From Deltaproteobacteria bacterium (lineage in GTDB: Bacteria; Desulfobacterota; Binatia; UBA9968; JAJDTQ01), in contig JAPPNF010000128.1 in the NCBI GenBank assembly GCA_028818755.1, positions 1 to 64,000 on the forward strand: 64,000 nucleotides of DNA, read 5' to 3'. The position numbers and the translations under genes are program-made. Positions within the stretch are counted from its first letter, which is position 1, and every line of letters begins with the position of its first letter. The notes below the pieces were generated by a model. It had not been told where the DNA came from. It ran no database searches and saw nothing but the letters and a program-made list of their open reading frames with translations. This document shows, one piece after another, positions 967 through 41,193 of the stretch.

Positions 967-978
967 GCACCGTTCCGG

Positions 979-1833: not shown

Positions 1834-1871
1834 CCTCCTAAGTATAGCGAATACTCCGACAAACGCGAAAA

Positions 1872-2588
1872 GTGATGTCTTCCGGACCGGTCACCAACCC
1901 CAAGGCCGTCTTCCTGGACGCCGCCGGCACCCTCTTCGAATCCGTCCGACCCGTCGCGGTCACCTACGCGGAGATGGCCCGGCGGTACGGCAAGCGCGTT
2001 CCCTTCGAGGAGGTCTCGCGGCGATTCCGTCACTGCTTCGCTACCGCGCCGCCGATGGCGTTCCCCGGCTCGGAGGGCGCGCGGCTCAAGGCGCTGGAGA
2101 AGGACTGGTGGCGCGACCTCGTGCGGCGCATCTTCGAGCCCACCGGCCCCTTCGCGCGTTTCGACGACTACTTCGACGAGCTTTTCGCCTACTTCGCCCG
2201 TGCCGACTCCTGGGTGCTCTACGATGACGCCCGCGCCACGCTGGAGGCCCTGCGGGCGCGTGGCCTGATCCTGGTCATGATCTCGAACTTCGATTCGCGC
2301 GTGCTGAAGATCGTCGAGGGCCTCGGCGTCGCGGACTACTTCGATTCGGTCTTCATCTCGAGCAGCGCGGGGTTCGCCAAGCCCTCGGCGGGAATCTTCC
2401 ATCTCGCCCTGGAGCGCCACGGCATCGCGCCGGACGAGGCCATCCACGTGGGCGACAGCCCGGAAACCGATGTCGAGGGGGCGCTGAACGCCGGAGTGCG
2501 GCCGGTGCTGCTGGACCGCGACGGCGACGCCCGCCACGAAAGCGCCCTCCGCATCGACGGGCTTCACGAGTTGATGAGCCTCGTCTAG
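1872..2588 (+). CDS. HAD-superfamily hydrolase (subfamily IA)
   Basis: This 238-residue haloacid-dehalogenase-type phosphatase contains motif I as DAAGTL (near residue 16, with Ala in place of the second Asp), motif II in SNFDSR, the motif III lysine in KPSAGIF and motif IV in HVGDSPETD. The usual acid two residues after the nucleophile is missing, as in some HDHD3-like members. The substrate cannot be told from sequence. Translation begins at GTG 1872 or at the ATG three bases later. The TAG stop (2586-2588) is shared with the repeat element: TA is target sequence and the G is the first base of the element. Confidence 0.85.
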   Translation: MMSSGPVTNPKAVFLDAAGTLFESVRPVAVTYAEMARRYGKRVPFEEVSRRFRHCFATAPPMAFPGSEGARLKALEKDWWRDLVRRIFEPTGPFARFDDYFDELFAYFARADSWVLYDDARATLEALRARGLILVMISNFDSRVLKIVEGLGVADYFDSVFISSSAGFAKPSAGIFHLALERHGIAPDEAIHVGDSPETDVEGALNAGVRPVLLDRDGDARHESALRIDGLHELMSLV

Positions 2589-2746
2589 TGTTGCGTTCCG
2601 CAAATACGTCGACGAATCTGCTTGTCCTTTTTGCCGTCGGCTGCGTTGCTCTTCCTCGCGTGGTGCACGCCACTGCTCGTCATCGCGCCTTGCCGACAAC
2701 AAAAAATCCTGCGCATCTTCGCCAACGTATTTGCGGAACGCAACAC
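2588..2746. repeat. 159-bp TA-flanked inverted-repeat element, copy B
   Basis: This element runs between TA at 2586-2587 and TA at 2747-2748, in the context C-TA ... TA-G, so the inferred empty site is CTAG. Its arms are GTGTTGCGTTCCGCAAATAC and its exact reverse complement. They are identical for 22 bases, then nearly so to base 29. They share only GTGT and a few later bases with other copies. The core is in the reverse orientation and contains an inner inverted repeat (TTTTTGCCGTCGGC against GCCGACAACAAAAA). It encodes no transposase. It lies between the HAD and amidohydrolase genes, which run in the same direction. Confidence 0.9.
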
Positions 2747-2805
2747 TAGTCGTCTAAATTGCTTGAACCGAGTTCTCGAACCGACGTTGTACTGGAGGTC
2801 ATATC

Positions 2806-3846: not shown

Positions 3847-6078
3847 ATGGGCGCCGGCATGGCGAAACGTCAACTGAAATACGTCGGCGCCAACACCCGC
3901 AGGGTGGATGGCTTCGACAAGGTCACGGGGCAGGCCAAGTACACCGGAGACCTGGAGATCCCCGGCATGCTCTACGGCCACGTCCTGCGCAGCCCCTACC
4001 CGCACGCGCTCATCGAGGACATCGACACCGCGGCCGCCGAGAAGCTGCCGGGGGTGGCGGGTGTGCTCACCGGCCGGGACGTGGGGGATCTGGACCCGCA
4101 CTACGCCGGGCGCCCGCTCATCGCGCTGGAGAGAGTCCGCTACGCGGGCGAGCCGGTGGCGGTGGTGGCGGCGGAGGATCCGCTGACCGCGGAGCAGGCG
4201 GCGGCGGCGGTCGAGGTGGCCTACAGGGAACTCCCTTCCGCGATCGGACTCGACGCCGCGCTGGCGCCGGACGCGCCGCTGGTGCACGAGGACCAGGGCG
4301 GCAACATCTGCGGCCATGACAAGGTGAGGCGCGGCGACGTGGCCGAAGGCTTCGCGCGGTCGGAGCACATCTTCGAGCACCGCTTCACCTTCCCCATGAT
4401 CTACCACTACTCGATGGAGCCCCACGGCGTCATCGCCGACTATCAGGGGGACCGCATCGTGCTGTGGTCTTCGGCGCAGCACCCGTTCCTGGTGCAGGCC
4501 GACCTGGCGCGCATCTTCGGGCTGCCCGCCAGCCGGGTGAGCCTCAACGTCCCCTACCTGGGCGGCGGCTTCGGCGGCAAGTCCTATGCCAAGATCGAGC
4601 CGCTGGTGGTGGCGGCCTCGCGCAAGGTGGGCCGTCCGGTGCGGGTGTGCCTGTCGGTGGCGGAAGCCATGCTGACGGTGCGGCGCCACAGCGCGCAGGT
4701 GCGGCTGAAGACCGGCGTCAGGCAGGACGGCATCATCATGGCGCGGGAAGCGGAGATCTACCTCGATACCGGCGCCTACATGGACAACGGCCCCCAGGTG
4801 GCCACGCGCGCGGCCACCCGCGTTTTGGGCCCTTACCGCATCCCCCACATCCACACCGACGCCTACGCGGTCTACACCCACAGCGGCGGCGCCGGTTCCT
4901 TTCGTTCCATCGGCGGCCCGCAATCGATCTTCGCCGGTGAGAGCCAGATGAACATCATCGCCGCCACACTCGGCATGGACCCGGCCGACCTGAGGCTCCG
5001 GAACCTGCTCAAGCGCGGCGAGGTGATGCGTCCGGGGCTGCGCCCGCTGGATGTCAACCTGGCGGCGACCCTCAAGAAACTGGTCGGAGCGAGCCGCTGG
5101 AAGAAGCGCTCCGGCAAGGCCGGAGCGCCGGTGGGACTGGCCTGCGGCATGACCAACGCCGGCGGCCAGCCCATCACCGTGGCCATGGTGCGACTCCAGG
5201 CCGACGGCGCCGCCACCATCATGGCCGGCAGCACCGAGATGGGCCAGGGAGTGCGCACGGTGCTGTCGCAGTTCGTCGGCGAGGAGTTGCAACTCCCGCT
5301 GGAGCGCATCCGCATGTCGGGCGCGGACACCGCCATCACGCCTTACGACCGCTCCACCGGATCGAGCCGCTCCACCGTGCTCATGGGCCGGGCGGTGCAG
5401 CAGGCCGCCCGCGACGTCAAGCGCCAGCTCCTGAGGATCGGCGCCGGCGTGTACGGCGTCCGGCCCGGCCAGATCCGGCTTGCGGACGGCGCGCTGGTAT
5501 GCGGGGAAGCCCGCATGACGTTCGCCGAGGCGTTGGCGAAACGCTTCGGTGCCGCCGCCGGAGAGCTGGTCGGCACCGGCACCGTGGGACCCGAGATCAT
5601 CAACGATGTGCTGCCGGTGGTGTGGGAGGTGGGCATGGGAGCGGTCGAGCTGGAGGTCGACCGCGAAACCGGCTCCATCTCGGTGGTCGATTACCTGTCG
5701 GTGGCCGACGTCGGAAAGGCCATCAACCCCGTCCAGTGCGAGGGCCAGGAGGAAGGCGCGGCCATGATGGGCCTCGGCCACGCCCTGTTCGAGCAGATGA
5801 TCTACGAGGGCGGACAGCTCGTCAACTCCAACCTCGTGGACTACCGGATCCCCTCCTTCTCCGACATGCCGCGCGGTTTCCACACCGTGCTGGTGGAGAA
5901 CGGCGACGGCCTGGGCCCCTACGGCAGCCGGGGCATGGGCGAAGGCGGCATCTTCTCGGTGGCGCCGGCCATCACCGGCGCACTCGCTCATGCAACCGGC
6001 GTCCAGATCTGCGACCTGCCGCTCACGCCCGAACGGGTGTGGCGCTCGCTCAGGGATGCCGGAGAAGACGGCGGATGA
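3847..6078 (+). CDS. Molybdopterin-binding large subunit of a xanthine-dehydrogenase-family hydroxylase (orphan)
   Basis: This 743-residue homologue of XdhB, CoxL and aldehyde oxidase large subunits hydroxylates an aromatic or heterocyclic carbon or an aldehyde using Mo-cytosine dinucleotide. The molybdopterin motif GGGFGGK is at residues 239-245, the MGQG motif is in STEMGQGV, and the catalytic glutamate is E699 in GMGEGG. The FAD and 2Fe-2S subunits normally adjacent are absent. The nearest are at 11.4-12.8 kb, so they may be shared or encoded elsewhere. The start at 3847 has a GGAG very close; ATG 3859 is the alternative. It overlaps metF by 4 bp (ATGA). Confidence 0.9.
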   Translation: MGAGMAKRQLKYVGANTRRVDGFDKVTGQAKYTGDLEIPGMLYGHVLRSPYPHALIEDIDTAAAEKLPGVAGVLTGRDVGDLDPHYAGRPLIALERVRYAGEPVAVVAAEDPLTAEQAAAAVEVAYRELPSAIGLDAALAPDAPLVHEDQGGNICGHDKVRRGDVAEGFARSEHIFEHRFTFPMIYHYSMEPHGVIADYQGDRIVLWSSAQHPFLVQADLARIFGLPASRVSLNVPYLGGGFGGKSYAKIEPLVVAASRKVGRPVRVCLSVAEAMLTVRRHSAQVRLKTGVRQDGIIMAREAEIYLDTGAYMDNGPQVATRAATRVLGPYRIPHIHTDAYAVYTHSGGAGSFRSIGGPQSIFAGESQMNIIAATLGMDPADLRLRNLLKRGEVMRPGLRPLDVNLAATLKKLVGASRWKKRSGKAGAPVGLACGMTNAGGQPITVAMVRLQADGAATIMAGSTEMGQGVRTVLSQFVGEELQLPLERIRMSGADTAITPYDRSTGSSRSTVLMGRAVQQAARDVKRQLLRIGAGVYGVRPGQIRLADGALVCGEARMTFAEALAKRFGAAAGELVGTGTVGPEIINDVLPVVWEVGMGAVELEVDRETGSISVVDYLSVADVGKAINPVQCEGQEEGAAMMGLGHALFEQMIYEGGQLVNSNLVDYRIPSFSDMPRGFHTVLVENGDGLGPYGSRGMGEGGIFSVAPAITGALAHATGVQICDLPLTPERVWRSLRDAGEDGG

Positions 6079-6941
6079 AGATCCGGGAGCGCTTCGGGCA
6101 GGAACAGCCGCTGTTCTCCTTCGAGTTCTTCCCGCCCAAAGACGACCAGGGCGTCGACAGGCTTTTCGAGACCGTAGCCAACCTGAAGCCCCTGCGGCCG
6201 GCTTTCGTCTCGGTCACCTACGGCGCCGGCGGCAGCACCCGCGAGAAAACCGTCGCCATTACCCAAAGGATCAAGCGCGAGGCCGGCATCGAAGCCATGG
6301 CCCACCTCACCTGCGTGGGACACGGGCGCGACGAGATCGGCGAGCTCGTCGACGAATACGAGGAGGCCGGGATCGAGAACATCATGGCGCTACGGGGCGA
6401 CCCGCCCCGGGGAGACACGGAGTTCGTCCCCCACCCCCAGGGATTCTCACACGCCAACGAGCTGATCGCGTTCATCCGGCAAAGGAAGGACTTCTGCATC
6501 GGCGGCGCCGGCTACCCGGAGATGCACCCGGAAGCGCCGAGCCCGGAGGAGGACCTGCTCAACCTCAAGCGCAAGGTCGACGCCGGCGCCGACTTCGTCG
6601 TGACCCAGCTTTTCTTCGACGAACGCGACTACTTCGAGTTCGTGTCACGGGCGCGGTCGGAAAGGATCGACGTGCCCATCGTTCCGGGCGTGATGCCCGT
6701 AACGAACACCGCCCAGATCAAGCGCTTCACGCAGATGTGTGGGGCGACGATCCCTGGACCTTTGCTGGCAAAACTTGAAGCGGTGGCCGGCGATGCGGAG
6801 GCGGTCGTCGAGGCGGGCATCGAGCACGCCACGCGGCAGTGCCGCGCGCTCCTGGAGGGAGGCGCGCCGGGCATCCACTTCTACACCCTCAACCGCTCCC
6901 TCTCGACCCGGCGGATCCTCGCCAGCCTGCAGGGCGAATAA
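6075..6941 (+). CDS. metF: 5,10-methylenetetrahydrofolate reductase
   Basis: This 288-residue FAD enzyme reduces 5,10-methylene-THF to 5-methyl-THF for methionine synthesis and C1 metabolism. Family signatures are visible in order: FSFEFFPPK with the catalytic Glu, SVTYGAGGSTREKT, HLTCVG, NIMALRGDPP, CIGGAGYPEMHPEA and DFVVTQLFFD. The length matches bacterial MetF. The ATG at 6075 overlaps the TGA of the preceding Mo subunit, so the two are translationally coupled. That pairing suggests the upstream catabolic steps may release C1 units that are captured on tetrahydrofolate, but this is inference. A hairpin follows immediately downstream. Confidence 0.95.
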   Translation: MKIRERFGQEQPLFSFEFFPPKDDQGVDRLFETVANLKPLRPAFVSVTYGAGGSTREKTVAITQRIKREAGIEAMAHLTCVGHGRDEIGELVDEYEEAGIENIMALRGDPPRGDTEFVPHPQGFSHANELIAFIRQRKDFCIGGAGYPEMHPEAPSPEEDLLNLKRKVDAGADFVVTQLFFDERDYFEFVSRARSERIDVPIVPGVMPVTNTAQIKRFTQMCGATIPGPLLAKLEAVAGDAEAVVEAGIEHATRQCRALLEGGAPGIHFYTLNRSLSTRRILASLQGE

Positions 6942-6942
6942 A

Positions 6943-6973
6943 AAGGGCCGGGAGCGTCCTGCCCCCGGCCCTT
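6943..6973. terminator. Intrinsic terminator between metF and ubiD
   Basis: A 10-bp perfect stem (AAGGGCCGGG with CCCGGCCCTT) encloses an 11-base loop between the convergent metF and UbiD genes. On the minus strand the stem is followed by TTTTTATT, a classical rho-independent tail, so it mainly serves the UbiD transcript. The plus-strand tail (CGTTG) is weaker. Confidence 0.85.
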
Positions 6974-6993
6974 CGTTGCAAAACCAAACAGAG

Positions 6994-8481
6994 CTAGCCT
7001 TCGATCACGTGGCGCCACTTGTCGAACACCTTCTTCTTGAGCTCGGGTGTCGACTCGGCCACGGGCGGGAAGTCCTTCATCCACTCGAAGGGGCGCGTGG
7101 CGTCGATGATGGCGCGTGAGTTGAAGCCCTTCTTGCCCGGTTGGATGCGCGGGTCCAGCGGGCCGCTCCAGCAGCGCCGCAGGATGTCGATGGAGTCCAC
7201 CGGATCGGAACGCGTGGCCAGCGCCCAAAGGACATCGAAGGTCTTGGTGGGGTCGATGTCGTCGTCCACCACGATGACGTAGCGGCCGAGGTAGGCGCCG
7301 GCGTGCACTTGCGAGGCCACGAAACCGGCCTGGCGCGCGTGGCCCGGGTAGCGCTGCTTGATGGAGATGATGTTGAGCAGACGGCCGCCGCCTGCCTCGT
7401 GGCACCACACGCCCTTGACGTCCGGCACCCCGGCCTTCTCCACCTGGTCCCAGATGAGCGCGGCCTTCACCATGCACTTGGCGATGGAGTAGTCCGAAGG
7501 CGGGCGCCCGGGCCGGGCGGCGGTGAGGATCGGGTCGTTGCGGTGGTAGATGCGCTGCACCCGGATGAGAGGCTCGGGCCGGCTGTTGCTGGCGTAGTAG
7601 CCGGTCCATTCGCCGAACGGCCCTTCGGTGACGCGCTCCTCGGGGTCCATGAAGCCCTCGATGACGATCTCGGCATGGGCCGGGAACGGCAGTCCGGTGA
7701 CCTCGCCGTGGATCACGTCGATGGGCCCGCCCTTGAGGCCGCCGGCGTAGTCGTACTCGGATACGCCGTAGTCCACCTCGTTGCCGGAAACCATGAACAG
7801 CACCGGGTCCTGGCCGACGCAGACGATGACCGGGCACTTCTCGCCCCGGTCGAACCACTTGTCGCGCTGTATGCGGCCGTGCTTTCCGGGCGAGATGTAG
7901 ACGTTCATGCTCTTCTCGTCCTGCACCATGCCGCGGTAGGTGCCGAAGTTGACCCAGCCCTCGTCCGGATCCTTGGTCACGACGAGACAGCCCGTGCCGA
8001 TGTAGCGTCCGCCGTCCAGCTCGTGGACGAAAGGCACCGGGAACTTGAGCAGGTTGATGTCCTCGCCCTTGAGCACGTTCTCCATCACCGGCCCGTTCTC
8101 GACGACACGGTGCGGGATCGGGTTGTGCTGGGAGATCTTCTCGCGGGTGGCCCGCACGAGATCCAGGTCGGTGTAGTCGAGGGGCAGGCCCAACGCTAGC
8201 GCCATGCGCTTGAACGAGGCGTTCTGGGCGAACAGCACCCGGAATCCCTCGGGATAGTCCTTGATGTTGTCGTACAGCACCGCGGGGACCGGTCCGCTGC
8301 TTCCCTGGGCGATGAGCTCGGAAAGCGTTCCCATCTCCAGGTTCCAGTCCACCCCGTCGACCTTCTTCAGTTGCCCGAAGCTCTCGACGATCTCCAGCCA
8401 CTCCCGGAGGTCGGTGTAGCTGGGCGTCCCTCCGGCCTTCATTTCCTTTTCGGCGATCTTGGTTGCTTCTACAGCGGCCAT
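6994..8481 (-). CDS. UbiD-family prenylated-FMN (de)carboxylase
   Basis: This 495-residue protein matches UbiD-type reversible decarboxylases that act on unsaturated or aromatic acids with prenylated FMN made by UbiX. Visible family segments are NFGTYRGMV, SPGKHGRIQRDKW, the catalytic glutamate region EGPFGEWTGYYA, and VVDDDIDPTKTFDVLWALATR. No ubiX is in the window. It sits alone on the minus strand, downstream of an ABC ATPase gene of the same orientation (150 bp apart), and converges with metF through a shared terminator. A specific substrate cannot be assigned; it is one of three UbiD paralogues in this window. Confidence 0.9.
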   Translation of the reverse strand: MAAVEATKIAEKEMKAGGTPSYTDLREWLEIVESFGQLKKVDGVDWNLEMGTLSELIAQGSSGPVPAVLYDNIKDYPEGFRVLFAQNASFKRMALALGLPLDYTDLDLVRATREKISQHNPIPHRVVENGPVMENVLKGEDINLLKFPVPFVHELDGGRYIGTGCLVVTKDPDEGWVNFGTYRGMVQDEKSMNVYISPGKHGRIQRDKWFDRGEKCPVIVCVGQDPVLFMVSGNEVDYGVSEYDYAGGLKGGPIDVIHGEVTGLPFPAHAEIVIEGFMDPEERVTEGPFGEWTGYYASNSRPEPLIRVQRIYHRNDPILTAARPGRPPSDYSIAKCMVKAALIWDQVEKAGVPDVKGVWCHEAGGGRLLNIISIKQRYPGHARQAGFVASQVHAGAYLGRYVIVVDDDIDPTKTFDVLWALATRSDPVDSIDILRRCWSGPLDPRIQPGKKGFNSRAIIDATRPFEWMKDFPPVAESTPELKKKVFDKWRHVIEG

Positions 8482-19860: not shown

Positions 19861-21000
19861 TCAATAGATGCCGGGAACGATCCGGTATTTCACCCGCGCC
19901 TGATACTCCGCCCACTTGTCCGCGCCGTATTTCTCCGCGCAGTGTTTGTCGTCATCGAGTTGCCGGTAGGTGAACAGCGAGACGATGAAGACGAAGTAGG
20001 TCCAGGCCCAGGGATTGGTGAAATAGCCGAACGACAGGGCGATCGACAGGGCAAGGAACCCCTCGCCCATGTAGTTGAAGTGGCGGGCGACACCCCACAG
20101 ACCGCTGCACAGGATCTTGCGATCACCGACCTCGATGTACCTGGGCTCGATGAGCCCGAGAAACGTGCGGTCGGGCCATTGCTTGAACATGTACTTCTGC
20201 ATGTTGGCGCCGCGCGATATTCCCCACCCGAACAGGAACAGCGCGGTCGTTCCGATGAGCCAGACATACGTCCATGGCGGCGAGAATCCGGGGTCCGGGT
20301 AGACGGCCATTCCCCACAACGGCAGGATGAACAGCCACCCGTAGACCACCAAGCAACCCCAGAACAACTTGAAGCCGAGGTTCTCGTGGATCAGATCGTA
20401 GGTGTATAGCTGGACGCGCTCGAAGATGCAGTAGTCCAGTATGTAGAAGGTGAAGAACGCCGCGTACAGGAAAACGCCCGGATTGTAGTCTTCGCCAAAA
20501 AGCTCGTAGTGGTACGCGGCCCCGGACAGGGCGTTGAGCGACAACATCGTCCCGCCGACGACATAGAGGTACATCTTCACGTCGAAGCGTTCTTTGAAGA
20601 ACGCCAGCTCCTGAGCCCGCCCGAACCACAGCGTCAGGATCGGATTCCTGACCTTGCCCTGCGGCTGGCTGAACACCGCAAGGACCGTAACGATGGCGGC
20701 GACAACCGTTCCGCCGGCCACCGCGTAGACCGAAGACCGGTAGAACCAGTCGCGCGGCATCCCGGTGAGCTCGAAAGCCCACGCAACCAACGCGAGCGCG
20801 AACACCAGAAGACCGTTCAGCCGGTAGCTGCGGGGCTCACCCGTCTCCGGATTGATGACGTAGCCGGTAAGCCGCCTTCCCGGCAGAATGAGCTGCGCCA
20901 GGAAGAACACGGCAAAGACCGCCAGCGGGGTGAAGAACCCCAGAATCGCTTCCGTCCGGGAAAGCTCGAAGAGGTGGCCGATGCCGAGCCATTCAATCAT
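19861..21000 (-). CDS. ERG4/ERG24 (delta14 / delta7 / C24) sterol-reductase-family membrane protein
   Basis: This 379-residue multi-pass membrane protein (about nine hydrophobic segments) has the signatures of eukaryotic DHCR7, TM7SF2 and LBR reductases. Near the C-terminus are CSGLWGVARHFNYMGEG, then LDDDKHCAEKYG and the terminal YRIVPGIY. The N-terminal part carries LPGRRLTGYV ... YRLNGLLVF, and the middle DLIHENLGF. These enzymes use NADPH to reduce sterol double bonds in membranes. Isoprenylcysteine methyltransferases share the C-terminal fold but not the N-terminal half. No sterol synthesis genes are in this window. It lies between the SRP RNA and a tRNA-Ser on the same strand. Confidence 0.87.
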   Translation of the reverse strand: MIEWLGIGHLFELSRTEAILGFFTPLAVFAVFFLAQLILPGRRLTGYVINPETGEPRSYRLNGLLVFALALVAWAFELTGMPRDWFYRSSVYAVAGGTVVAAIVTVLAVFSQPQGKVRNPILTLWFGRAQELAFFKERFDVKMYLYVVGGTMLSLNALSGAAYHYELFGEDYNPGVFLYAAFFTFYILDYCIFERVQLYTYDLIHENLGFKLFWGCLVVYGWLFILPLWGMAVYPDPGFSPPWTYVWLIGTTALFLFGWGISRGANMQKYMFKQWPDRTFLGLIEPRYIEVGDRKILCSGLWGVARHFNYMGEGFLALSIALSFGYFTNPWAWTYFVFIVSLFTYRQLDDDKHCAEKYGADKWAEYQARVKYRIVPGIY

Positions 21001-21112: not shown

Positions 21113-21202
21113 TGGCGGAGAGGGAGGGATTCGAACCCCCGTTACCCGTAGGTAAACCTGATTTCGAGTCAGGCGCCTTCAACCGGACTCGGCCACCTCT
21201 CC
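21113..21202 (-). tRNA. tRNA-Ser (anticodon CGA)
   Basis: A 90-nt class II tRNA is seen on the minus strand. The acceptor stem pairs GGAGAGG with CCTCTCC, the discriminator is G and CCA is encoded. The anticodon stem-loop CCTGACTCGAAATCAGG gives anticodon CGA. The long variable arm (TACCTACGGGTA) and the T arm (GGGGGTTCGAATCCCTC) are clear. It reads UCG codons. Confidence 0.96.
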
Positions 21203-31978: not shown

Positions 31979-32956
31979 CTACAGCGTCAGCGCCGACCGG
32001 ACCTCGCTCATGGTCGCCTCGGCCTGCTCCCCGGCGACACGGTTGCCCTCGGCGATAACGTCGCGGATGTCGTCCGGCCGGTTGTCGTAGTAGGCCTTCT
32101 TCTCCCGGAAAGGCGCGAGGTCGTCGACGACGTGCCGGATCATCACCTTCTTGCAGTCCAGGCAGCCGATGCCGGCGCTGCGGCATCCTTCCGAGACCTC
32201 CTGGATCTCTTCCGGGGTGCAGTAGATCTTGTGCAGGTTGAAGGCCGGGCACTTCTCCGGCTCGCCGGGGTCGGTCCTGCGAGCCCGCGCCGTGTCCGTC
32301 ACCATGCGGCTCAGCTTGCGGTCGATGGTCTCCGGCGAGTCCGAGAGCAGCACGGAGTTGCCGTAGCTCTTGCTCATCTTGCGTCCGTCGAGGCCCGGCA
32401 ACCGCTGGGTCTCCGTGAGCAGCACCTCGGGTTCGGGGAACACCGGACCATAGAAGCTGTTGAAGCGCCGGACGATCTCCCGGGTGAGCTCCACGTGGGG
32501 CGCCTGGTCCACACCCACCGGCACCCGGTGGGCCTTGTACATGATGATGTCCGCCGCCTGCAGCACCGGATAGCCGAGAAAACCGTAGGTCGACAGGTCG
32601 CGCTCCTTCAGCTCGGTCATCTGCTCCTTGTAGGTCGGGTTCCTTTCCAGCCAGGAAACCGGCGTCAGCATGGACAGCAGCAGATGGAGCTCGGCGTGCT
32701 CCTTGATGTCCGACTGCCGGAAGATCGTGCACCTCGCGGGGTCGAGGCCGACGCTGAGCCATTCCGCCACCATCGCCCGGGTGCCGTCCGAAATGCCGTC
32801 CGGAGACTGGTAGTCCGTGGTCAGCGCATGCCAGTCGGCGACGAAGAAAAAACAACGGTAGTCGTCCTGCAGGCCGACCCAGTTGCGCAGGGCGCCGTGG
32901 AGATGGCCCAGGTGAAGCAGTCCGGTGGGGCGCGCCCCGCTTACGATGGTATCCAT
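31979..32956 (-). CDS. trpS: Tryptophanyl-tRNA synthetase
   Basis: This 325-residue class I synthetase charges tRNA-Trp. It has the HIGH-type motif as LHLGHLHGAL near residue 17 and the KMSKS motif in GRKMSKSYGN near residue 195. The length fits bacterial TrpS. It lies between the site-2 protease and scpA genes with very short spacers. Confidence 0.95.
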   Translation of the reverse strand: MDTIVSGARPTGLLHLGHLHGALRNWVGLQDDYRCFFFVADWHALTTDYQSPDGISDGTRAMVAEWLSVGLDPARCTIFRQSDIKEHAELHLLLSMLTPVSWLERNPTYKEQMTELKERDLSTYGFLGYPVLQAADIIMYKAHRVPVGVDQAPHVELTREIVRRFNSFYGPVFPEPEVLLTETQRLPGLDGRKMSKSYGNSVLLSDSPETIDRKLSRMVTDTARARRTDPGEPEKCPAFNLHKIYCTPEEIQEVSEGCRSAGIGCLDCKKVMIRHVVDDLAPFREKKAYYDNRPDDIRDVIAEGNRVAGEQAEATMSEVRSALTL

Positions 32957-32965
32957 GGCATCAAC

Positions 32966-33622
32966 TTACACGACTCCGACCAGGACGGCCAGAAACCAGA
33001 TCACGAAGTCCATGATCGGCACCAGCGTGTAGGTCAGCGCCCCGGTCATCAGCAGCGCGACGACGATGATGAGCCCGAAAGGCTCGATGCGGGCCACCTG
33101 CATGGCCTGGGGCTCCGGCAGGAGGCCCACCAGCACCCGGCCCCCGTCCAGCGGCGGTATCGGAAAGATGTTGAACACCGCCAGCATCACGTTGATGCGC
33201 ACGCTGGTGAGGCACATGTACCACAGGTACGAGGATACCGAGCCGGCCGCGACGCCGCCGCTCATGAGGGTGAACTTCACCAGCAGCAGGCTCAGGACGG
33301 CCAGGATGATGTTGGCGCCGGGCCCCGCCAGCGCCACCTTGATCATGTCGCGCCTGGGATCCTTCAGGTTGTCGTAGTCTACGGGAACGGGCTTGGCATA
33401 GCCGAATACCGGCCCGCCGGCCCAGATGAGCAGGGCCGGCAGCAGCACCGTGCCGACGATGTCGATGTGCGAGAACGGGTTCAGGGTCAGCCGGCCCATG
33501 ATGGCGGCCGTGGGATCGCCCAGCCGATAGGCCACCCACCCGTGCGCCACTTCGTGAAAGACGATGGCCACGAGCACCGGGAATGCCCAAATCGACAGTT
33601 GCCACAGGAACTCTTGGGCCAT
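32966..33622 (-). CDS. Site-2 protease family membrane metalloprotease (M50)
   Basis: This 218-residue polytopic membrane protein has the zinc motif HEVAHG in FHEVAHGWVAYRLGD, and the second motif as PPLDGGRVLVG with the metal-binding Asp. It belongs to the compact YwhC/FPN-type group without a PDZ domain. Substrates are unknown. The frequent placement beside trpS and scpA in bacteria supports the call. Confidence 0.92.
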   Translation of the reverse strand: MAQEFLWQLSIWAFPVLVAIVFHEVAHGWVAYRLGDPTAAIMGRLTLNPFSHIDIVGTVLLPALLIWAGGPVFGYAKPVPVDYDNLKDPRRDMIKVALAGPGANIILAVLSLLLVKFTLMSGGVAAGSVSSYLWYMCLTSVRINVMLAVFNIFPIPPLDGGRVLVGLLPEPQAMQVARIEPFGLIIVVALLMTGALTYTLVPIMDFVIWFLAVLVGVV

Positions 33623-33666
33623 TGCACATTCTTAAGTGACGGGTTGCGAAAACACAACGCCGCCTC

Positions 33667-34584
33667 TCAACCCTTGCCGCCGGGGGTTTCCCGCGGATGG
33701 AACTGCTGGTGGACCTTCTTGATGCGGCTCCGGCTCACGTGCGTGTAGATCTGGGTGGTGGCGATGTCCGAGTGCCCGAGCATCGACTGCACCGCGCGCA
33801 GGTCGGCGCCGCCCTCCAGCAGGTGGGTGGCGAAGGAATGGCGCAGCGTATGGGGCGTCACCCGGTGCTGCAGGCCGGCCCGGCGGGCGTATCCGCGCAG
33901 CAGCTTCCAGAATCCCTGGCGGGTGAGGGGCCTGCCGGAACGCGTGAGGAACACGTAGTCGCTGTAACCACCGCGCAGGAAGAACGGGCGCACGTCGCGC
34001 AGGTAGCGCCGCAGGCACTCGTACGCAAAGCGGCCGAAGGGGACCTGCCGCACCTTGGCGCCCTTGCCCTTGATGGTCAGATAGTTGCCCTCCATGCTGA
34101 CCTGCTGCAGCTTGAGGGAGACCAGTTCCGAAACCCGCAGCCCGCTGCCGTATAGCAGCTCCAGCATCGCGCGGTCCCGCGCTCCCAGGGGTTTGGCCTC
34201 GTCGGGCTGATCCAGCAGGATGCGCATGTCCGTGCCGCCGAGGGTTTCGGGCAGCCGGCCCGCGGCGCCCCGGGACGAGAACTCGGGCACCGGGTCGCTG
34301 GAGACCATCTCCTCCTTGAGGAGAAAACGATAGAACCGGCGCATGCTGCCCAGCAGGCGCGCCACCGAGCGTTCGCTGAGACGCTGCCCCCTGAGGTCGG
34401 CGATGTACGCCCGCAGGTCGGACGTGGCGGCATCGCCCCAGGCGCGCACGCCGCGGGCGGAGAGGAACTCGGCCAGCCGGTTCAGATCGCGGCTGTAGGC
34501 CTCCAGGGTGTTGGCCCGCAACCCCCGCTCCACGGCCAACGTCTCGATGAAGAGGTCAACCGGCCGCGTCAGCTCGTCCGTCAT
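33667..34584 (-). CDS. xerD: Tyrosine recombinase XerD
   Basis: This 305-residue site-specific recombinase resolves chromosome dimers at dif with XerC and FtsK. It has an N-terminal SAM-like core-binding domain (ETLAVERGLRANTLEAYSRDL) and a catalytic domain with Arg in GSGLRVSEL, His-x-x-Arg in TPHTLRHSFATHLL, His in LGHSDIATTQIY and the Tyr nucleophile in IYTHVS. A XerC paralogue or another dif-type recombinase is possible. It overlaps the glnD 3' end by 29 bp. Confidence 0.93.
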   Translation of the reverse strand: MTDELTRPVDLFIETLAVERGLRANTLEAYSRDLNRLAEFLSARGVRAWGDAATSDLRAYIADLRGQRLSERSVARLLGSMRRFYRFLLKEEMVSSDPVPEFSSRGAAGRLPETLGGTDMRILLDQPDEAKPLGARDRAMLELLYGSGLRVSELVSLKLQQVSMEGNYLTIKGKGAKVRQVPFGRFAYECLRRYLRDVRPFFLRGGYSDYVFLTRSGRPLTRQGFWKLLRGYARRAGLQHRVTPHTLRHSFATHLLEGGADLRAVQSMLGHSDIATTQIYTHVSRSRIKKVHQQFHPRETPGGKG

Positions 34585-37303
34585 CCTTCGGACCCAACTC
34601 CTGGTGGAGGGCGTCGCTCAAGGCCTGCAGGCGCCCATCGTCAAGGATCTTCCCGCCTTCTCCGTCGGCGACGTAGAAGACGTCGGCCACCTGGTCGACG
34701 TCGGTGGAAATCTTCGCCAGGTGGATGGCGAAGCCGAGCGTCGAGAGCAGGTAGGTGATGGTGAAGAGAACCCCGGGCCGGTCCTGCGTGTACACCTCGA
34801 CGATGGTGAAATCATCCGACGCGGCATTGTCCCAGCGGACATGGGTGGGAACCCTCACCGCGGGCCTGTGCGACCAGGAAGGCCGCGACCGCCCCACCAG
34901 CTCGGCGACGTCCACCTTTCCCTTCAGGACCCTTTCCAGGGACAGCTCCATGCGCGACCACTTCCCCGAGTCCATGACCACCTCGGCCCTGCCCTGGTGC
35001 GAGATGCGGAAGACGTCGAGAATGAGCCCGTCCCGGCGGGTGTTGATGCGCGCGCTCAGCACGTTGAGCTCCATGGCGGCGAAGACGCCGGCGATGGACG
35101 CGAACAGGCCGGGCTGGTCGTGGGCGCAGATGGCGACCTCGCTGTGGCCGTGCTCGGGATGGTGGAACACCGCCGCCAGGAACGGCTCGTCCCGGAGGCG
35201 CCGCAGCAGCCGGTAGTGGAAGCGCATGTCCTCCTCCGGGGTGGTGAGGAAGTAGCGCCTGGGCATGGCCTCGACGAAGTCCCGCCGCACCTCGTCGGCG
35301 GGATGCTCGGCGCCGAGCTCGGCCATGACCCGCTCCTGTATGCGCCGCACCTTCAGGTCACGGTCCGGTCTCGCGTACTCTCCCTTCTCGCGTTCTTCCA
35401 GGACGTCGTGGGTATGGTTGAACAGCTCCTCCAGCAGCGACGCCTTCCAGTTGTTCCAGACGTCGGGCCCCACCGCCTTCATGTCCGAATACGTCAGCAC
35501 GTAGAGGGCTTTGAGATTCTCCGCCGTGCTCATGGTATCCGCCAAGTCCAGCACGGTCTTCTCGTCCTGGATGTCGCGGCGAAAGGCGGTGCCGGTGAGC
35601 AACAGGTGATGGAGCACGAGAAAGGCCAGCAACTCCTGCTGGTCGACGTTGAGACCCATGCGCTCGGCGACCCGCAGGGCCATGACCCGTCCCAGTTCCG
35701 AGTGGCCGCCGCCCTGGCCCTTGCCGATATCGTGGAAAAGGATGCCCAGGATCAGGATCTCGGGTCTTTCGACCTCCCGGGCAAGCTGCGACAGGCGCGG
35801 CAGCGAGTCCTCGAACTCCCCGGACCGCAGGCGCTCGAACTCCTTGACCGCCCGCATCAGGTGCTGGTCCACGGTGTAGATGTGGTAGAGGTCGTGCAGC
35901 GCCATGCAGCGCACCCGGCCGAATTCCGGGATCAGGGCATCCAGGACCCCGGTGCGATGCATCTCCAGCAGGGTTTCGTAGATCCAGTCGTTGCCGCGCA
36001 GTATGTCGAGGAACCTTCGATTGGCCCCGGCCGATGCCGGGAGTCCCCCTTCCATCGCCCCGACCCACGCCCTGACCATCTCCCGGGAGTCCTGTCCCAG
36101 GTTCAAGCGATACCTTTGCAGGTCCACGAAGAGGTCGAGCAGTTCCTCGGGAGGCCGGTGCCCGCCGTTGACGGGCCTCACCGCGAGTGTCCGCTCCGTG
36201 ATTCGCACGCCGGGACGCAGTTCACGTCCGGGCCGCGGCCCGCGGCGCTGCGCGGGATCGTGATCCACCGCGCGGTGGATCACCAGCGACGACAGCCGGC
36301 TGACCTCCTCCGCGTGCAGGTAGTACGAACGCATGAAGGTCTCGACCTCGCTCAACCGCTCCTCCCCGTCGAAACCCAGCCCCTGCGCCGCCTGCTCCTG
36401 GGACTCGACGGTCAGCCGGTCCTGATGCCGGCCAGCCAGGAAATGGAGCTCGTTGCGGGTGCGCCAGAGGAAGTCCCGCCCCCGTTCCAGAGCGTCGGCA
36501 TCGTCTGGCTCCAGAAGGCCCGTACGGGGCAGGTCCTGGATCTCCGCGGCGCCGCTCTTCGCCCGCGCGATCCACATGGCCGTGTGGATGTCGCGGAGGC
36601 CCCCCTGCCCTTCCTTGATGTCGGGCTCCAGCAGGAAGACCGACTCGCCGTGACGCTGATGGCGCTGATCGCGCTCGCTGATCTTGGTGCCGACGAAGCG
36701 GTCGGCGCCGCCCCCTCTGAGCTGCCTCCAGAACACCCGCTCCAGGTCCCGATACAGCTTCTCGTCGCCGCAAATGAGACGCGCGTCCACCAGCGCGGTC
36801 TGGATCACCTGGTCGCGCCGGGCATGGCGTGCGCACTCGGTCACGGTGCGGGTCGCATGACCCACGGTCAACCCGGCGTCCCACAAGGGATAGAGGATCC
36901 TGTGGGTGACGAACTCCACGTAGGACGCCGCCCGCCAGCCATACAGGAACAGGATGTCGATGTCCGAGTAGGGATTCAACTCGCCGCGGCCGTACCCGCC
37001 CTGGGCCACCACCGCGCAGCGTCCCTTCGACGGCGCCGCCCCGTCTTCCTCCGCGGTCTCGAACAGGCGCCGCAAGAGGCAATCGATCATCTCGCCGTAT
37101 GCCCGCACCACCTCCGCGCCCGACGCCCCCGAGCGATGGGATCCAAGCAGCCGCTCGCGCCCCTGGTCGATGTACGCCCGGACGCCCTCTCCCGGATTCG
37201 CGCCCCGGACGTGCTCGTCCGCGAGCGTCCGCCAGGGGGCGCCCCCTCCGGCGCCGCGCATCGGACCCTGCATGTCTCCGCTTCCCTCCACGGCTGTCGT
37301 CAC
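34556..37303 (-). CDS. glnD: [Protein-PII] uridylyltransferase / uridylyl-removing enzyme
   Basis: This 915-residue nitrogen sensor modifies PII according to glutamine. Domains in order are: a nucleotidyltransferase (GGYGRGELNPYSDIDILFL, about residues 98-116), a linker domain, an HD domain (ILFHDIGKGQGGGHSELG) for deuridylylation, and two C-terminal ACT domains (CAHDQPGLFASIAGVFA; TQDRPGVLFTITYLL). The length matches full GlnD. The GTG at 37303 shares one base with the amidase TAG stop; ATG codons a few residues in are alternatives. No PII gene is in the window. Confidence 0.95.
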   Translation of the reverse strand: MTTAVEGSGDMQGPMRGAGGGAPWRTLADEHVRGANPGEGVRAYIDQGRERLLGSHRSGASGAEVVRAYGEMIDCLLRRLFETAEEDGAAPSKGRCAVVAQGGYGRGELNPYSDIDILFLYGWRAASYVEFVTHRILYPLWDAGLTVGHATRTVTECARHARRDQVIQTALVDARLICGDEKLYRDLERVFWRQLRGGGADRFVGTKISERDQRHQRHGESVFLLEPDIKEGQGGLRDIHTAMWIARAKSGAAEIQDLPRTGLLEPDDADALERGRDFLWRTRNELHFLAGRHQDRLTVESQEQAAQGLGFDGEERLSEVETFMRSYYLHAEEVSRLSSLVIHRAVDHDPAQRRGPRPGRELRPGVRITERTLAVRPVNGGHRPPEELLDLFVDLQRYRLNLGQDSREMVRAWVGAMEGGLPASAGANRRFLDILRGNDWIYETLLEMHRTGVLDALIPEFGRVRCMALHDLYHIYTVDQHLMRAVKEFERLRSGEFEDSLPRLSQLAREVERPEILILGILFHDIGKGQGGGHSELGRVMALRVAERMGLNVDQQELLAFLVLHHLLLTGTAFRRDIQDEKTVLDLADTMSTAENLKALYVLTYSDMKAVGPDVWNNWKASLLEELFNHTHDVLEEREKGEYARPDRDLKVRRIQERVMAELGAEHPADEVRRDFVEAMPRRYFLTTPEEDMRFHYRLLRRLRDEPFLAAVFHHPEHGHSEVAICAHDQPGLFASIAGVFAAMELNVLSARINTRRDGLILDVFRISHQGRAEVVMDSGKWSRMELSLERVLKGKVDVAELVGRSRPSWSHRPAVRVPTHVRWDNAASDDFTIVEVYTQDRPGVLFTITYLLSTLGFAIHLAKISTDVDQVADVFYVADGEGGKILDDGRLQALSDALHQELGPKDDGRADAAG

Positions 37304-38409
37304 TATGGATTACCCCTTTTCCGCAGCACGTTGGCGTAGTTCTTGATGCCGCGGTACAGGCCCTCGACGATGGCCTCCTGGAACTCGGCGCGCTGCAGCG
37401 CCCGCGCCTCGCGGCGATTGCTGACGAAGAACAGCTCCGCCAACGCGGACGGCATGCGCGCTCCCACCAGCACGTAGAACAACCCCTTCTTCACCCCCAG
37501 GTCCTTGGCGCTCGGATACTGCGGCCGGGTCCTCTTCACCAGCGACGATTGGAGGTGGCTCGCCAGGCTGATGGAATCCGACAGGTACACGTTCAGCTTG
37601 AGGTCGCTCAGCATGATTTGCAAGTCCGTGAGGTTCCTGCGCGCGGTGCCGTTCTCCCGCGCGGCCAGCTTCATGGTGGCTTCGTCCGTGGTCTTGTCCA
37701 GGTAGTAGGTCTCCAGGCCGCCGGCCCTGCGGTTGTGGCTGGCGTTGGCGTGAAGGGAAAGGAACAGGTCGGCGCGCTCCGCGTTGGCCATGGCCGTGCG
37801 TCCCTTGAGGGGAATGAACACGTCCGCGTTCCTGGTAAGGACCACGTCCACTCCCATGCGACGGCGGAGCCTGGGCGCCAGCTTCCTGGCCACGCGAAGC
37901 ACCACGTCCTTCTCCTTGAGCCCGCCCGCGCCGATGGCCCCGGGATCCTTCCCGCCATGGCCCGGGTCCAGCACGATCCTGCGGACCGCCAACTGCCGGC
38001 CCGCCGCCGACCCGCTCTTCCGCTCCACGTCCACCAGCAGCCGGTGGGGGTTTGACAGCAGCACCGCGTCATGGCTGCCGGGCCGCTTGAGGTCGAGCAC
38101 CACCCGCACCACGTCCGCCTTGTACTGAGCCAGCCGGACCCGGCGAACCAGCGAATCGCCGACCTGGACCTGCCGCCCGGTCTTCAGGCGAGCCCCCGCG
38201 AGATCCAGGTAGATGCGCGGCGGCAGGCGCTTCCGGGGAACCGCCGGCAGGGTCCGTATCGTGTACTTGACCGGCCCGGACAGGTCGAGGATCACTCGCG
38301 TGTAGTTGGATGAGGAGAGGTGCCGCACGCTCGTGAGCACGGCGGCGTCGACCTCGAACGCCGTGCCCGCAGCGCACAACACAAGCAACACCGCCAGTAG
38401 ACGCGCCAA
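37303..38409 (-). CDS. amiC: N-acetylmuramoyl-L-alanine amidase (AMIN plus Amidase_3)
   Basis: This 368-residue exported cell-wall amidase has a signal peptide (LLAVLLVLCAAGTAFEVDAA), an AMIN targeting domain (NYTRVILDLSGPVKYTI) and a zinc amidase domain. The metal and catalytic residues are in LDPGHGGKDPGA, a Glu in LKEKD, and the His of SLHAN, with a terminal Glu in ALAELFFVSN. No ATG fits. A TTG at 38409 with GGAGG four bases upstream is favoured because the signal peptide starts there. A longer frame would start inside repeat element C, which lies 22 bp upstream. Confidence 0.88.
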   Translation of the reverse strand: MARLLAVLLVLCAAGTAFEVDAAVLTSVRHLSSSNYTRVILDLSGPVKYTIRTLPAVPRKRLPPRIYLDLAGARLKTGRQVQVGDSLVRRVRLAQYKADVVRVVLDLKRPGSHDAVLLSNPHRLLVDVERKSGSAAGRQLAVRRIVLDPGHGGKDPGAIGAGGLKEKDVVLRVARKLAPRLRRRMGVDVVLTRNADVFIPLKGRTAMANAERADLFLSLHANASHNRRAGGLETYYLDKTTDEATMKLAARENGTARRNLTDLQIMLSDLKLNVYLSDSISLASHLQSSLVKRTRPQYPSAKDLGVKKGLFYVLVGARMPSALAELFFVSNRREARALQRAEFQEAIVEGLYRGIKNYANVLRKRGNP

Positions 38410-38431
38410 TCCGCCTCCCCGTGACTCCCTA

Positions 38432-38590
38432 GTGTCCTGTCCCACGTAATTCTTTACCGAGATGCGCAGGATTTCTCGTTGTCGGCAAGGCGCGATGACG
38501 AGCAGTGGCGGGTACCACGCGAGGAAGAGCAACGCAGCCGACGACGAGAAAGACCAGCATATCGGTAAAGAATTACGTGGGACAGGACAC
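38432..38590. repeat. 159-bp TA-flanked inverted-repeat element, copy C
   Basis: This element is flanked by TA at 38430-38431 and 38591-38592 in a C-TA ... TA-G context. The arms read GTGTCCTGTCCCACGTAATT and are identical for 29 bases, with matches continuing to about 34. The core, in forward orientation, holds GGCAAGGCGCGATGACGAGC and an inner inverted repeat (TTTCTCGTTGTCGGC against GCCGACGACGAGAAA). It lies between mutS and amiC, both on the minus strand, and its right TA is part of the mutS stop codon. Confidence 0.93.
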
Positions 38591-41193
38591 TAGTACTTGG
38601 ACAGGCCCCTGACCTCCGTCACGAGATCGTCCAGGACGTTCAACGCCTCCAGGGGCGTGAGCGCGTTGGTATCGATGGCCTGGAGCTTTTCCCGCAACCG
38701 GTCCTGACCCGAGTCGTACAACATCAACTGGACTCCCTCCGGCGCCGCTTCGACGCCGGCAAGGCGAGGTTGTCCCCAGGCATTCAGCTCCTCGCCCTCC
38801 AGGTTCTTGAGAATCTCCTTGGCCCGCTCGATGAGCGGACGCGGCAACCCGGCCAGGCCGGCCACCTGGATGCCGTAGCTGCGACTGGCCGGACCCTCCT
38901 TGAGGGTGCGCAGAAAGATCACCTCCCCCTGCCATTCCTTGACCGCGAAGTTGAAGTTCTTCACGCGTTCCCGCGTGCGCGCCAGACTCGTCAGCTCGTG
39001 GTAGTGGGTGGCGAACAGCGTCCGCGGCCGGTGCGGCGACTCGTGCAGGAACTCCGCCAGCGACCAGGCGATGGAGATGCCGTCAAAGGTGCTCGTGCCG
39101 CGGCCCACCTCGTCCAGGAGGATCAGGCTGCGGGGCGTGGCCAGGCGCAGGATGCGGGCCGTCTCCTTCATCTCCACCATGAACGTCGACTCTCCCGCCG
39201 CCAGCGCGTCGGTAGCGCCGAAGCGGGTGAACAGCCGGTCCACCAGCCCCACGTGGGCGGCGTCGGCGGGCACGAAGCTGCCCATCTGCGCGAGGATCAC
39301 CACCAGCGCCACCTGCCGCATGTAGGTGGACTTGCCCGCCATGTTGGGACCGGTCAGGAGCATGATCTGCGTGGCCTCGGAATCCATCCCGCAATCGTTG
39401 GGGACGAATCCGCCGCGCCCCAGCGCGGCCTCCACCGCCGGATGCCGCGCCGCGCGCATGGCGAGGGTCAGGCTGGAGTCCACCCGCGGGCGGACGAAGC
39501 GCCGGGTTTCGGCGGTCTCCGCCAGCGCCAGCAGCGCGTCGAGCCTGGCCAGCGCCAGGCTGGACTGCTTGAGGACCGGGTAGTGGGCGGCGATACGGTC
39601 GAGCAGGTCCGCGAAGATCCGCGCTTCCAGCTTCAGTATCTCCTCGTCCGAGCCCAGCACCCGGGCCTCGTAGTCCTTCAGCTCGGGGGTGATGAACCGT
39701 TCGCCGTTGGCCAGCGTCTGTTTGCGGATGTAGTTGTCCGGAACGTTGCCGAGATTGGCCCGGGTGACCTCGATATAGTACCCGAACACCTTGTTGTAAC
39801 GTACCTTCAGCGAGTTGATGCCGGTGCGCTGGCGCTCCTGGTGCTGCAGGTCCGAGATCCAGCCCTTGGCGTTGCCGCGGATGGACGAGAGCGTGTCCAG
39901 TTCTTCATCGAAACCGGCGCGCACGAAACCCCCGGCGCGGGCGGTGGCCGGGGGCGCGTCCACCAACGCCCGTTGCACCAGTTCCACCACCTCCGGCACC
40001 GGCTCCAGTTGCGACCGAAGCCGGGTGAGCGGCTCGCTGCCGCACGCTGCGAGCTGTTCCCGCACCGCTTCCAGCGCCCGCAGCGTGTCCTTGATGGCGG
40101 TGAGGTCCCGGGGCGAGGCGCTTCGGGAAACGATCCGGCCGGACAGCCGTTCCAGATCCTGGACCCCGTGGAGGGCCTCCCGCAGCCTCCGCCGCATTTC
40201 CGGAGCGGCAACCAGCTCCTCCACGGAGTCCTGCCGGCGCCGGATCCGTTGCTCCTCCAGCAAGGGATAGAGGATCCACTTGCGCAGCTCTCGCGCCCCC
40301 ATGGCCGTACGCGCCGGCTCCAGGACGCCGAGCAGCGAGCCGCGCTTGCCTCCGTCGAAGGCGCGCACCAGCTCGAGATTGGCCTGGGTGTTCTCGTCCA
40401 GCATGAGAAACTGCGACGCACGATACGGCTCCAGCGCGGTCAGCACCTGCACCGCGCCGGGCGAGCGGTCTTCCAGATAGGCGAGAATGGCGCCCGCGGC
40501 CCGCACCCCCAGCGGCCACTCATCCTGCGGGCCCTGGTAGATGCCGCTGCTGTTCAGCCTCTGGACCGCCGCCCCCGAGAACCACGTCTCCGGCCCCGGG
40601 GTGCAGTGCACTCCTGCGTAGTCCTCACGCAAACCGGCGAGAGGACCGGAAAGAGTGTCGGGGATCAGCAGCTCCCGCGGTTGAATCCGTCCCAACTCGT
40701 TGGTGAGGGCCGCATAGCCCGTCATTTGGGTGAAGCGGAACTCGCCGGTGGTGACGTCGGTGAAGGACAAGCCGTAGTCGTCGCGGGCGGCGGTGACGGC
40801 GACGAGAAAATTGTTGAGCTCGGCGTCGAGTCCCTCCCCCTCGGTGAGGGTACCGGGGCTGATGACCTTGATCACCTCGCGCCGCACCACTCCCTTGGCG
40901 AGCTTGGGGTCCTCGGTCTGCTCGCACACCGCCACCTTGAAGCCGGCGGACAGGAGCTTGCCGATGTAGGGGGTGGCCGCGTGGTGCGGCACGCCGCACA
41001 GCGGAACGGGCGCGCCGTCGTTGCGGTTGCGGCTGGTGAGCGCGATGTCGAGCACCTTCGACGCCCTTTCCGCATCCTCGAAGAACATCTCGTAGAAGTC
41101 CCCGAGCCGGAAGAACAGGATGGCGTCCTGGTGACGCTCCTTGATCTCCAGGTACTGATGCATCATGGGCGTGAGCCGTGTCCGCTCCATCAT
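38590..41193 (-). CDS. mutS: DNA mismatch repair protein MutS
   Basis: This 867-residue mismatch-recognition ATPase has the mismatch-binding motif FFRLGDFYEMFFEDA near the N-terminus (Phe-x-Glu in DFYEMF), then connector, lever and clamp domains. The ATPase has Walker A TGPNMAGKSTYMRQ, Walker B SLILLDEVGRGTSTFDG and the THYHEL motif. The length is typical. Its stop codon TAG (38590-38592) combines the TA of the repeat target and the first base of element C. Element D lies upstream, so mutS is bracketed by two copies. Confidence 0.97.
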   Translation of the reverse strand: MMERTRLTPMMHQYLEIKERHQDAILFFRLGDFYEMFFEDAERASKVLDIALTSRNRNDGAPVPLCGVPHHAATPYIGKLLSAGFKVAVCEQTEDPKLAKGVVRREVIKVISPGTLTEGEGLDAELNNFLVAVTAARDDYGLSFTDVTTGEFRFTQMTGYAALTNELGRIQPRELLIPDTLSGPLAGLREDYAGVHCTPGPETWFSGAAVQRLNSSGIYQGPQDEWPLGVRAAGAILAYLEDRSPGAVQVLTALEPYRASQFLMLDENTQANLELVRAFDGGKRGSLLGVLEPARTAMGARELRKWILYPLLEEQRIRRRQDSVEELVAAPEMRRRLREALHGVQDLERLSGRIVSRSASPRDLTAIKDTLRALEAVREQLAACGSEPLTRLRSQLEPVPEVVELVQRALVDAPPATARAGGFVRAGFDEELDTLSSIRGNAKGWISDLQHQERQRTGINSLKVRYNKVFGYYIEVTRANLGNVPDNYIRKQTLANGERFITPELKDYEARVLGSDEEILKLEARIFADLLDRIAAHYPVLKQSSLALARLDALLALAETAETRRFVRPRVDSSLTLAMRAARHPAVEAALGRGGFVPNDCGMDSEATQIMLLTGPNMAGKSTYMRQVALVVILAQMGSFVPADAAHVGLVDRLFTRFGATDALAAGESTFMVEMKETARILRLATPRSLILLDEVGRGTSTFDGISIAWSLAEFLHESPHRPRTLFATHYHELTSLARTRERVKNFNFAVKEWQGEVIFLRTLKEGPASRSYGIQVAGLAGLPRPLIERAKEILKNLEGEELNAWGQPRLAGVEAAPEGVQLMLYDSGQDRLREKLQAIDTNALTPLEALNVLDDLVTEVRGLSKY

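Follow-up and report, generated by a model that had tools for sequence, protein, structure and literature searches.

In the bacterial delta14-sterol reductase MaSR1, Tyr241 is the predicted proton donor and Asp363 the predicted catalytic acid (PMC12489058); Asn359 and Arg395, corresponding to N547 and R583 of LBR, have roles in NADPH binding (PMC4951196), and yeast counterparts are also among the likely cofactor contacts (PMC12489058). In sponges, ERG24-CYP51-LSS clusters have been described in Ircinia symbionts of ten phyla, Binatia included, and were transferred between phyla (PMC9531527). Thus far, the sterol C24-methyltransferases (SMTs) of symbionts are known, and a smaller part of the metagenome-assembled genomes (MAGs) is known to carry de novo steroid clusters. 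Whether the unusual side-chain sterols of sponges are made by the animal or by its bacteria bears on 24-isopropylcholestane, the oldest proposed animal biomarker.

Here we analyze an ERG4/ERG24-type gene in a window of 64,000 nt (the whole stretch of DNA analyzed) from a genome designated G000. Judging from sequence comparisons, the gene product is probably a C=C reductase that uses NADPH and acts on a sterol acquired from outside the cell, most likely from a sponge host, and it would perform one step of a sterol-tailoring set that includes an SMT.

The window gene, its fold and its active site

The original prediction described an open reading frame with a DHCR7/ERG24-type match along its length, located beside the SRP RNA and a tRNA. 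The position is as described, and the full-length match is borne out by the Pfam profile, by the alignment to PDB entry 4QUV (MaSR1) and by the predicted fold. The features of the locus are as follows.

19861..21000, minus strand: gene for the ERG4/ERG24-type membrane sterol reductase of family A; ATG start, 379 codons and a stop codon
19651..19748, minus strand: small SRP RNA of the bacterial type, on the downstream side of the reductase gene; context, outside the system
21116..21202, minus strand: tRNA-Ser, upstream of the reductase gene; context
20443..20445, minus strand: codon of Tyr186, equivalent to MaSR1 Tyr241, predicted proton donor; Tyr in 84/84 family A sequences
20062..20064, minus strand: codon of Glu313, equivalent to MaSR1 Asp363, predicted catalytic acid; Glu in 84/84
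20074..20076, minus strand: codon of Asn309, equivalent to MaSR1 Asn359, predicted NADPH-phosphate contact (LBR N547); conserved in 83/84
19963..19965, minus strand: codon of Arg346, equivalent to MaSR1 Arg395, predicted NADPH pocket (LBR R583); conserved in 84/84

The protein matches PF01222 (ERG4_ERG24) with 121.2 bits (E 6.3e-35), the Pfam gathering cut-off being 27 bits. Residues 27-379 align to positions 76-432 of the 432-position profile, the first ~75 positions being missing at the N-terminus. Many short ICMT-like proteins in the phylum match only the C-terminal third of PF01222; the span of the match means that the window protein exceeds this ICMT-like part. Residues 28-379 also align to residues 76-427 of 4QUV (E 6.8e-33). 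The AlphaFold2 model (pLDDT 88.4, pTM 0.88) has 4QUV as its top fold, with a Foldseek E-value of 7e-15 and a VIA-align Z of 33.5 over 346 residues (rmsd 3.0). The next true structural relatives are steroid 5-alpha-reductases, including SRD5A2, and ICMT at Z 11-12; matches ranked below these were dismissed as generic helical bundles. The predicted resemblance to eukaryotic sterol reductases (DHCR7/ERG24) holds at the level of the family. It does not extend to a specific likeness to DHCR7 or ERG24; identity to the remaining full-length bacterial branches in the comparison is 25-32%.

The active site was analyzed by aligning the family A sequences (n=84) to MaSR1. In addition to the residues listed above, Asp350, Lys357 and Tyr366, equivalent to the NADPH-pocket residues Asp399, Lys406 and Tyr414 of MaSR1, are conserved in 84/84 sequences. 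The sister group A' (loci L022, L023, L141 and L142), 41-46% identical to family A, has Phe at the position of the catalytic Tyr in 4/4 sequences and, given this replacement, may use other chemistry or another substrate.

No sterol-module genes were found elsewhere in the window. Within the genus of the window genome, the reductase gene lies beside dnaX and tRNA-Ser in G000, G002 and G006 only and occupies other sites in G004, G005 and G008; the tRNA was therefore rejected as a candidate integration site.

Distribution and horizontal spread of family A

A search of 84,980 species yielded 536 relatives, of which the best 80 were examined. These 80 are full-length and 73-90% identical to the window protein. 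By the submitters' labels, two of which (both Latescibacterota) may be wrong, they come from MAGs of Binatota, Nitrospirota, Acidobacteriota, Gemmatimonadota, Chloroflexota, Dadabacteria, Nitrospinota, Alphaproteobacteria, Latescibacterota and Actinomycetota. In the genus of the window genome, family A is present in 6/9 genomes at 85-91% identity. Among 395 sampled Gemmatimonadota genomes it occurs in 21, at 74-81% identity, the next best match being at 43-46%; thus, its presence is patchy and the identity gap is clean.

In the phylogenetic tree, a quick reconstruction with SH-aLRT support only that includes MaSR1 and bacterial homologues and no eukaryotic DHCR7, ERG4 or LBR, all 84/84 family A sequences form one starred clade with a long stem and short inner branches. 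This phylogeny places the window gene in a purely bacterial clade, and a eukaryotic-type specificity (DHCR7, ERG24) is conjectural. Phyla are grouped at the tips of the family A clade and intermixed deeper, and well-supported branches require at least 2-3 separate placements each for Gemmatimonadota, Chloroflexota and Pseudomonadota. Identity averages 80.6% within phyla and 77.6% between them. This near-equality indicates that family A is horizontally spread, across at least 10 bacterial phyla. Mis-binning is an unlikely source of the cross-phylum identity, because family A genes reside on long single chromosomes of four phyla (OX638355, OX638327, OX638332 and OX638324) and also in G008, whose assembly is one contig.

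Judging from bin names, many of which lead to sponge studies, the carriers of family A are probably sponge symbionts for the most part, the habitat being established for some of the bins. The jk18x series corresponds, by a name match in the literature search, to Ircinia MAGs (PMC9531527), and the prefixes RHO, COS, IRC and APA presumably denote the hosts Rhopaloeides, Coscinoderma, Ircinia and Aplysina of PMC8163846.

Over the 80 named loci, no overall conserved neighborhood of family A was found, linkage to the SMT set being lineage-wise only. A search of plasmids revealed no family A gene and one PF01222 relative at 29% identity, annotated as a hypothetical protein, on a Planktothrix agardhii plasmid (NZ_LR882940.1, 41294-42325). 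Viral contigs of IMG/VR likewise contained no family A gene and two relatives, at 45% and 30%. Two local arrangements were also observed. In sponge-associated Chloroflexota, family A genes form a tandem pair (L116:6588-8991, L118:6737-9140, L125:6737-9140), whose copies might act on different double bonds. In one Acidobacteriota clade (L057, L058, L059 and L061), a membrane protein that by eye looks like DUF1295 (steroid 5-alpha-reductase-like) is encoded just upstream of family A on the same strand and is possibly a second sterol reductase.

Association with sterol C24-methyltransferase

The SMT domain Sterol_MT_C (PF08498) was found in 41/50 family A genomes, as well as in the window genome, and in 0/14 control genomes; no SMT was seen in the remaining 9/50. 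SMT occurs without oxidosqualene cyclase (OSC) in 31/50 genomes, and in 23/50 with neither OSC nor full-length squalene-hopene cyclase. A further companion of family A is a fusion of a GPP34 (Golgi phosphoprotein 3-like) domain with a cytochrome P450, present in 45/50 genomes (47/50 including P450-only matches), 44-94% identical across phyla and usually located near an SMT gene; SMT and P450 are at most 10 kb apart in 30 of the 38 family A genomes having both. A limited literature search found no published description of this fusion. Among the 395 Gemmatimonadota, SMT is present in 19/21 genomes with family A vs 18/374 without it (Fisher p 3e-20), and the fusion in 17/21 vs 26/374 (p 7e-15). 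The test takes genomes as independent, leaving niche and relatedness in the association, and both family A and SMT are sponge-symbiont traits; the co-occurrence, confounded in this way by niche and kinship, thus demonstrates association and not function.

Physical linkage is lineage-specific. Family A lies within 15 kb of SMT or P450 in 7/50 genomes from three phyla and is unlinked elsewhere, including the window genome, where the reductase is on contig C128 and SMT on C32. At six Dadabacteria loci, SMT adjoins family A, and these Dadabacteria have no cyclase. The SMT-P450 cluster also exists without family A, in 18 of the 34 Gemmatimonadota having both SMT and P450. The cluster of the window genome and the fusion genes at two other loci are the following.

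C32 of the window genome, about 32475-40575: SMT set, comprising SMT, MMPL protein, FAD protein, Rieske protein and GPP34-P450
C32, 32478-32666: SMT; Sterol_MT_C match of 60 bits in a 362-aa protein containing GWGESLHF
C32, 38557-40575, plus strand: GPP34-P450 fusion
L116 (Chloroflexota), 753-2777, minus strand: GPP34-P450 fusion
L089 (Dadabacteria), 5632-7647, minus strand: GPP34-P450 fusion

We take GWGESLHF to be the region-I motif of SMTs. The MMPL protein has weak Patched and sterol-sensing matches, the FAD protein is amine-oxidase-like, and the Rieske protein contains a KshA_C domain and matches KshA (3-ketosteroid 9alpha-hydroxylase) in both Pfam and PDB. The NCBIfam match closest to a sterol function is SdmA (4beta-methylsterol oxygenase), scoring far under its cut-off. 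A copy of the MMPL gene with 99% identity is present in G006, and the C32 cluster is therefore native to the genus and not a contaminant.

Most of the SMT set is seen beside family A in Dadabacteria (L089-L092, L123) and Chloroflexota (L116, L118, L125). The gene order is FAD, GPP34-P450, family A, SMT, outer-membrane-type protein, SMT, LolA-like, MMPL in L089, and family A, MMPL, Rieske, SMT, SDR in L091. The three Chloroflexota loci combine Rieske and FAD genes with the two tandem family A genes, joined in L116 and L118 by SMT and GPP34-P450. Compared with other phyla, the window-genome proteins are 72-80% (FAD), 57-71% (Rieske) and 63-66% (nearest SMT type) identical, so the cluster genes, too, appear to be shared between phyla.

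Sterol source, rival explanations and described systems

The window genome (4.9 Mb, 96.3% complete, 5.6% contamination) contains a single full-length PF01222 gene, and profile searches of it detected neither a squalene/oxidosqualene cyclase (PF13249) nor a squalene epoxidase (PF08491). Five genomes of the same genus with family A also have no cyclase. Overall, OSC is present in 11/50 family A genomes and missing from 39/50, squalene-hopene cyclase is present in 19/50, and 29/50 have neither OSC nor full-length squalene-hopene cyclase. A second PF01222 family (B), with 225-249 Pfam bits and 241 bits to MaSR1, is found in 11/50 family A genomes. All 11 also carry an OSC-type gene; most of these genes lie in open frames 1100-1400 aa long, a length consistent with the squalene epoxidase (SE)-cyclase fusion known from Melophlus; these carriers of steroid clusters include two Candidatus Binatia MAGs (loci L053 and L054 in G430 and G431). 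Families A and B are 31-32% identical, form separate clades and coexist in some genomes. Because of this, and because the window genome has no cyclase, we rejected the identification of family A with the ERG24 of the published steroid clusters.

Other observations on steroid clusters concern separate loci. Two family B reductases, L136 (G461, contig C365) and L138 (G428, contig C21), each contain one in-frame stop, reflecting decaying genes or assembly errors. In G003 (contig C69, L254:241-3046), a squalene epoxidase gene continues into a cyclase N-terminal domain that stops at ~107 profile positions, with a transposase-like frame adjoining; it is probably a disrupted steroid cluster. This PF08491 match was discarded as a clue to the window gene, the SE-cyclase gene being on another contig and G003 having no family A.

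Three other explanations can be weighed against the reduction of acquired sterols. The first would make the window gene part of a de novo pathway whose other genes lie outside the window, with delta14 (or delta7) reduction as its step, in the manner of the ERG24-CYP51-LSS clusters. It is very improbable: such clusters do accompany family A in the 11 genomes above, the two Candidatus Binatia among them, and are known in Binatia (PMC9531527), but they bring their own, different reductase (family B), and cyclases are missing from the window genome, its five relatives and most family A genomes. The synthesis elsewhere in the genome envisaged by the original prediction is thus not borne out. A substrate outside the sterols, i.e., a non-sterol isoprenoid or other membrane lipid such as a hopanoid precursor, carotenoid or quinone, with the SMT link reflecting the sponge niche only, appears unlikely. 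It would fit the A' sister group, the nearest relatives, which have neither the catalytic Tyr nor a known substrate, and also the related SRD5A3 and ICMT folds, which work on polyprenyl substrates. However, family A does not track squalene-hopene cyclase; it tracks SMT and adjoins it in cyclase-free Dadabacteria, and tested bacterial SMT homologues methylate sterols (PMC10070321).

The KshA-like Rieske protein makes sterol breakdown for carbon and energy, instead of membrane or host tailoring, a live alternative for the reductase and the whole SMT/P450/Rieske/FAD/MMPL set. P450s and MmpL proteins are likewise known from sterol catabolism. Nevertheless, C24 alkylation ahead of degradation would be wasteful, and the closest sterol-type NCBIfam match is to the 4beta-methylsterol oxygenase SdmA, albeit far under its cut-off; we consider breakdown quite unlikely. 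Reduction of acquired sterols is the best explanation, given the conserved active site, the lack of sterol synthesis, and the company of SMT and sterol-type oxygenases. The use of host or environmental sterols, also raised in the original prediction, is better supported than own synthesis, by the C32 set and by the same combination in several sponge-symbiont phyla. We infer the sterol substrate from the evidence above, and the host origin of the sterol from the habitat.

By homology to MaSR1 and ERG24, the sterol would enter the reductase pocket from the lipid side. Tyr186, helped by Glu313, would protonate a double bond of the sterol, and a hydride would be supplied by NADPH held by Asn309, Arg346, Asp350, Lys357 and Tyr366. 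SMT would methylate the side chain at C24, and the reductase would perform one step of a tailoring set that includes the GPP34-P450, the KshA-type Rieske protein, the FAD enzyme and the MMPL/RND transporter. Speculatively, and with less than even odds, the reductase may resemble yeast ERG4 in saturating the double bond that SMT leaves in the side chain. In favor of this target, SMT products contain such a bond, and sponge-symbiont SMTs yield 24-isopropyl dienols in vitro (PMC10070321). A ring double bond would be compatible with the family A sequence equally well.

A broader and doubtful extension is that sterol tailoring without synthesis has passed by horizontal transfer among sponge symbionts of ten or more phyla, the set turning host sterols into 24-alkylated, side-chain-saturated sterols and family A being the missing reductase for SMT products such as 24-isopropylcholest-5,25-dienol. 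If this is true, family A would yield saturated sponge sterols, the precursors of the 24-isopropylcholestane fossil biomarker. A sterol reductase in SMT-bearing, cyclase-free bacteria would imply that the editing of sterols made by others extends to a much larger number of symbionts and to many phyla. Family A is a concrete enzyme candidate for the saturation step and a clear case of one enzyme common to a community of unrelated bacteria.

Among described systems, MaSR1 of Methylotuvimicrobium alcaliphilum shares the full-length fold with the window reductase, in which the equivalents of Y241, N359, R395, D399, K406 and Y414 are kept and D363 is replaced by Glu. The window reductase differs from it in being about 28-30% identical, with a shorter N-terminus and a long separate tree stem, and in residing in a genome without sterol-synthesis genes. 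Yeast ERG4, a C24(28)-sterol reductase, acts after the SMT ERG6. Its likeness to family A is in the Pfam family and in the proposed order of steps, the activity of family A being a proposal.

The TM7SF2/ERG24 (msbC) reductases of the Ircinia and Melophlus symbiont clusters (PMC9531527, PMC7074536) resemble family A in the PF01222 domain, similar length, cross-phylum transfer and, sometimes, presence in the same genome. The msbC type belongs to another clade and is linked to CYP51 and the SE-OSC fusion, whereas family A is not and is present in many genomes without OSC. The sponge-symbiont SMTs of PMC10070321 have counterparts in most family A genomes, the window genome included; the accessible part of that paper covers SMTs and de novo sterol clusters and describes no such reductase partner. 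Finally, the orphan sterol reductases of Coxiella, Legionella drancourtii and Chlamydiae (PMC8787468, PMC2667531, PMC9666466) offer a parallel, as they belong to host-associated bacteria that have no sterol synthesis and are thought to use host sterols. The literature derives those reductases from eukaryotes or leaves their origin unclear, whereas family A is a bacterial clade found across many phyla and associated with SMT.
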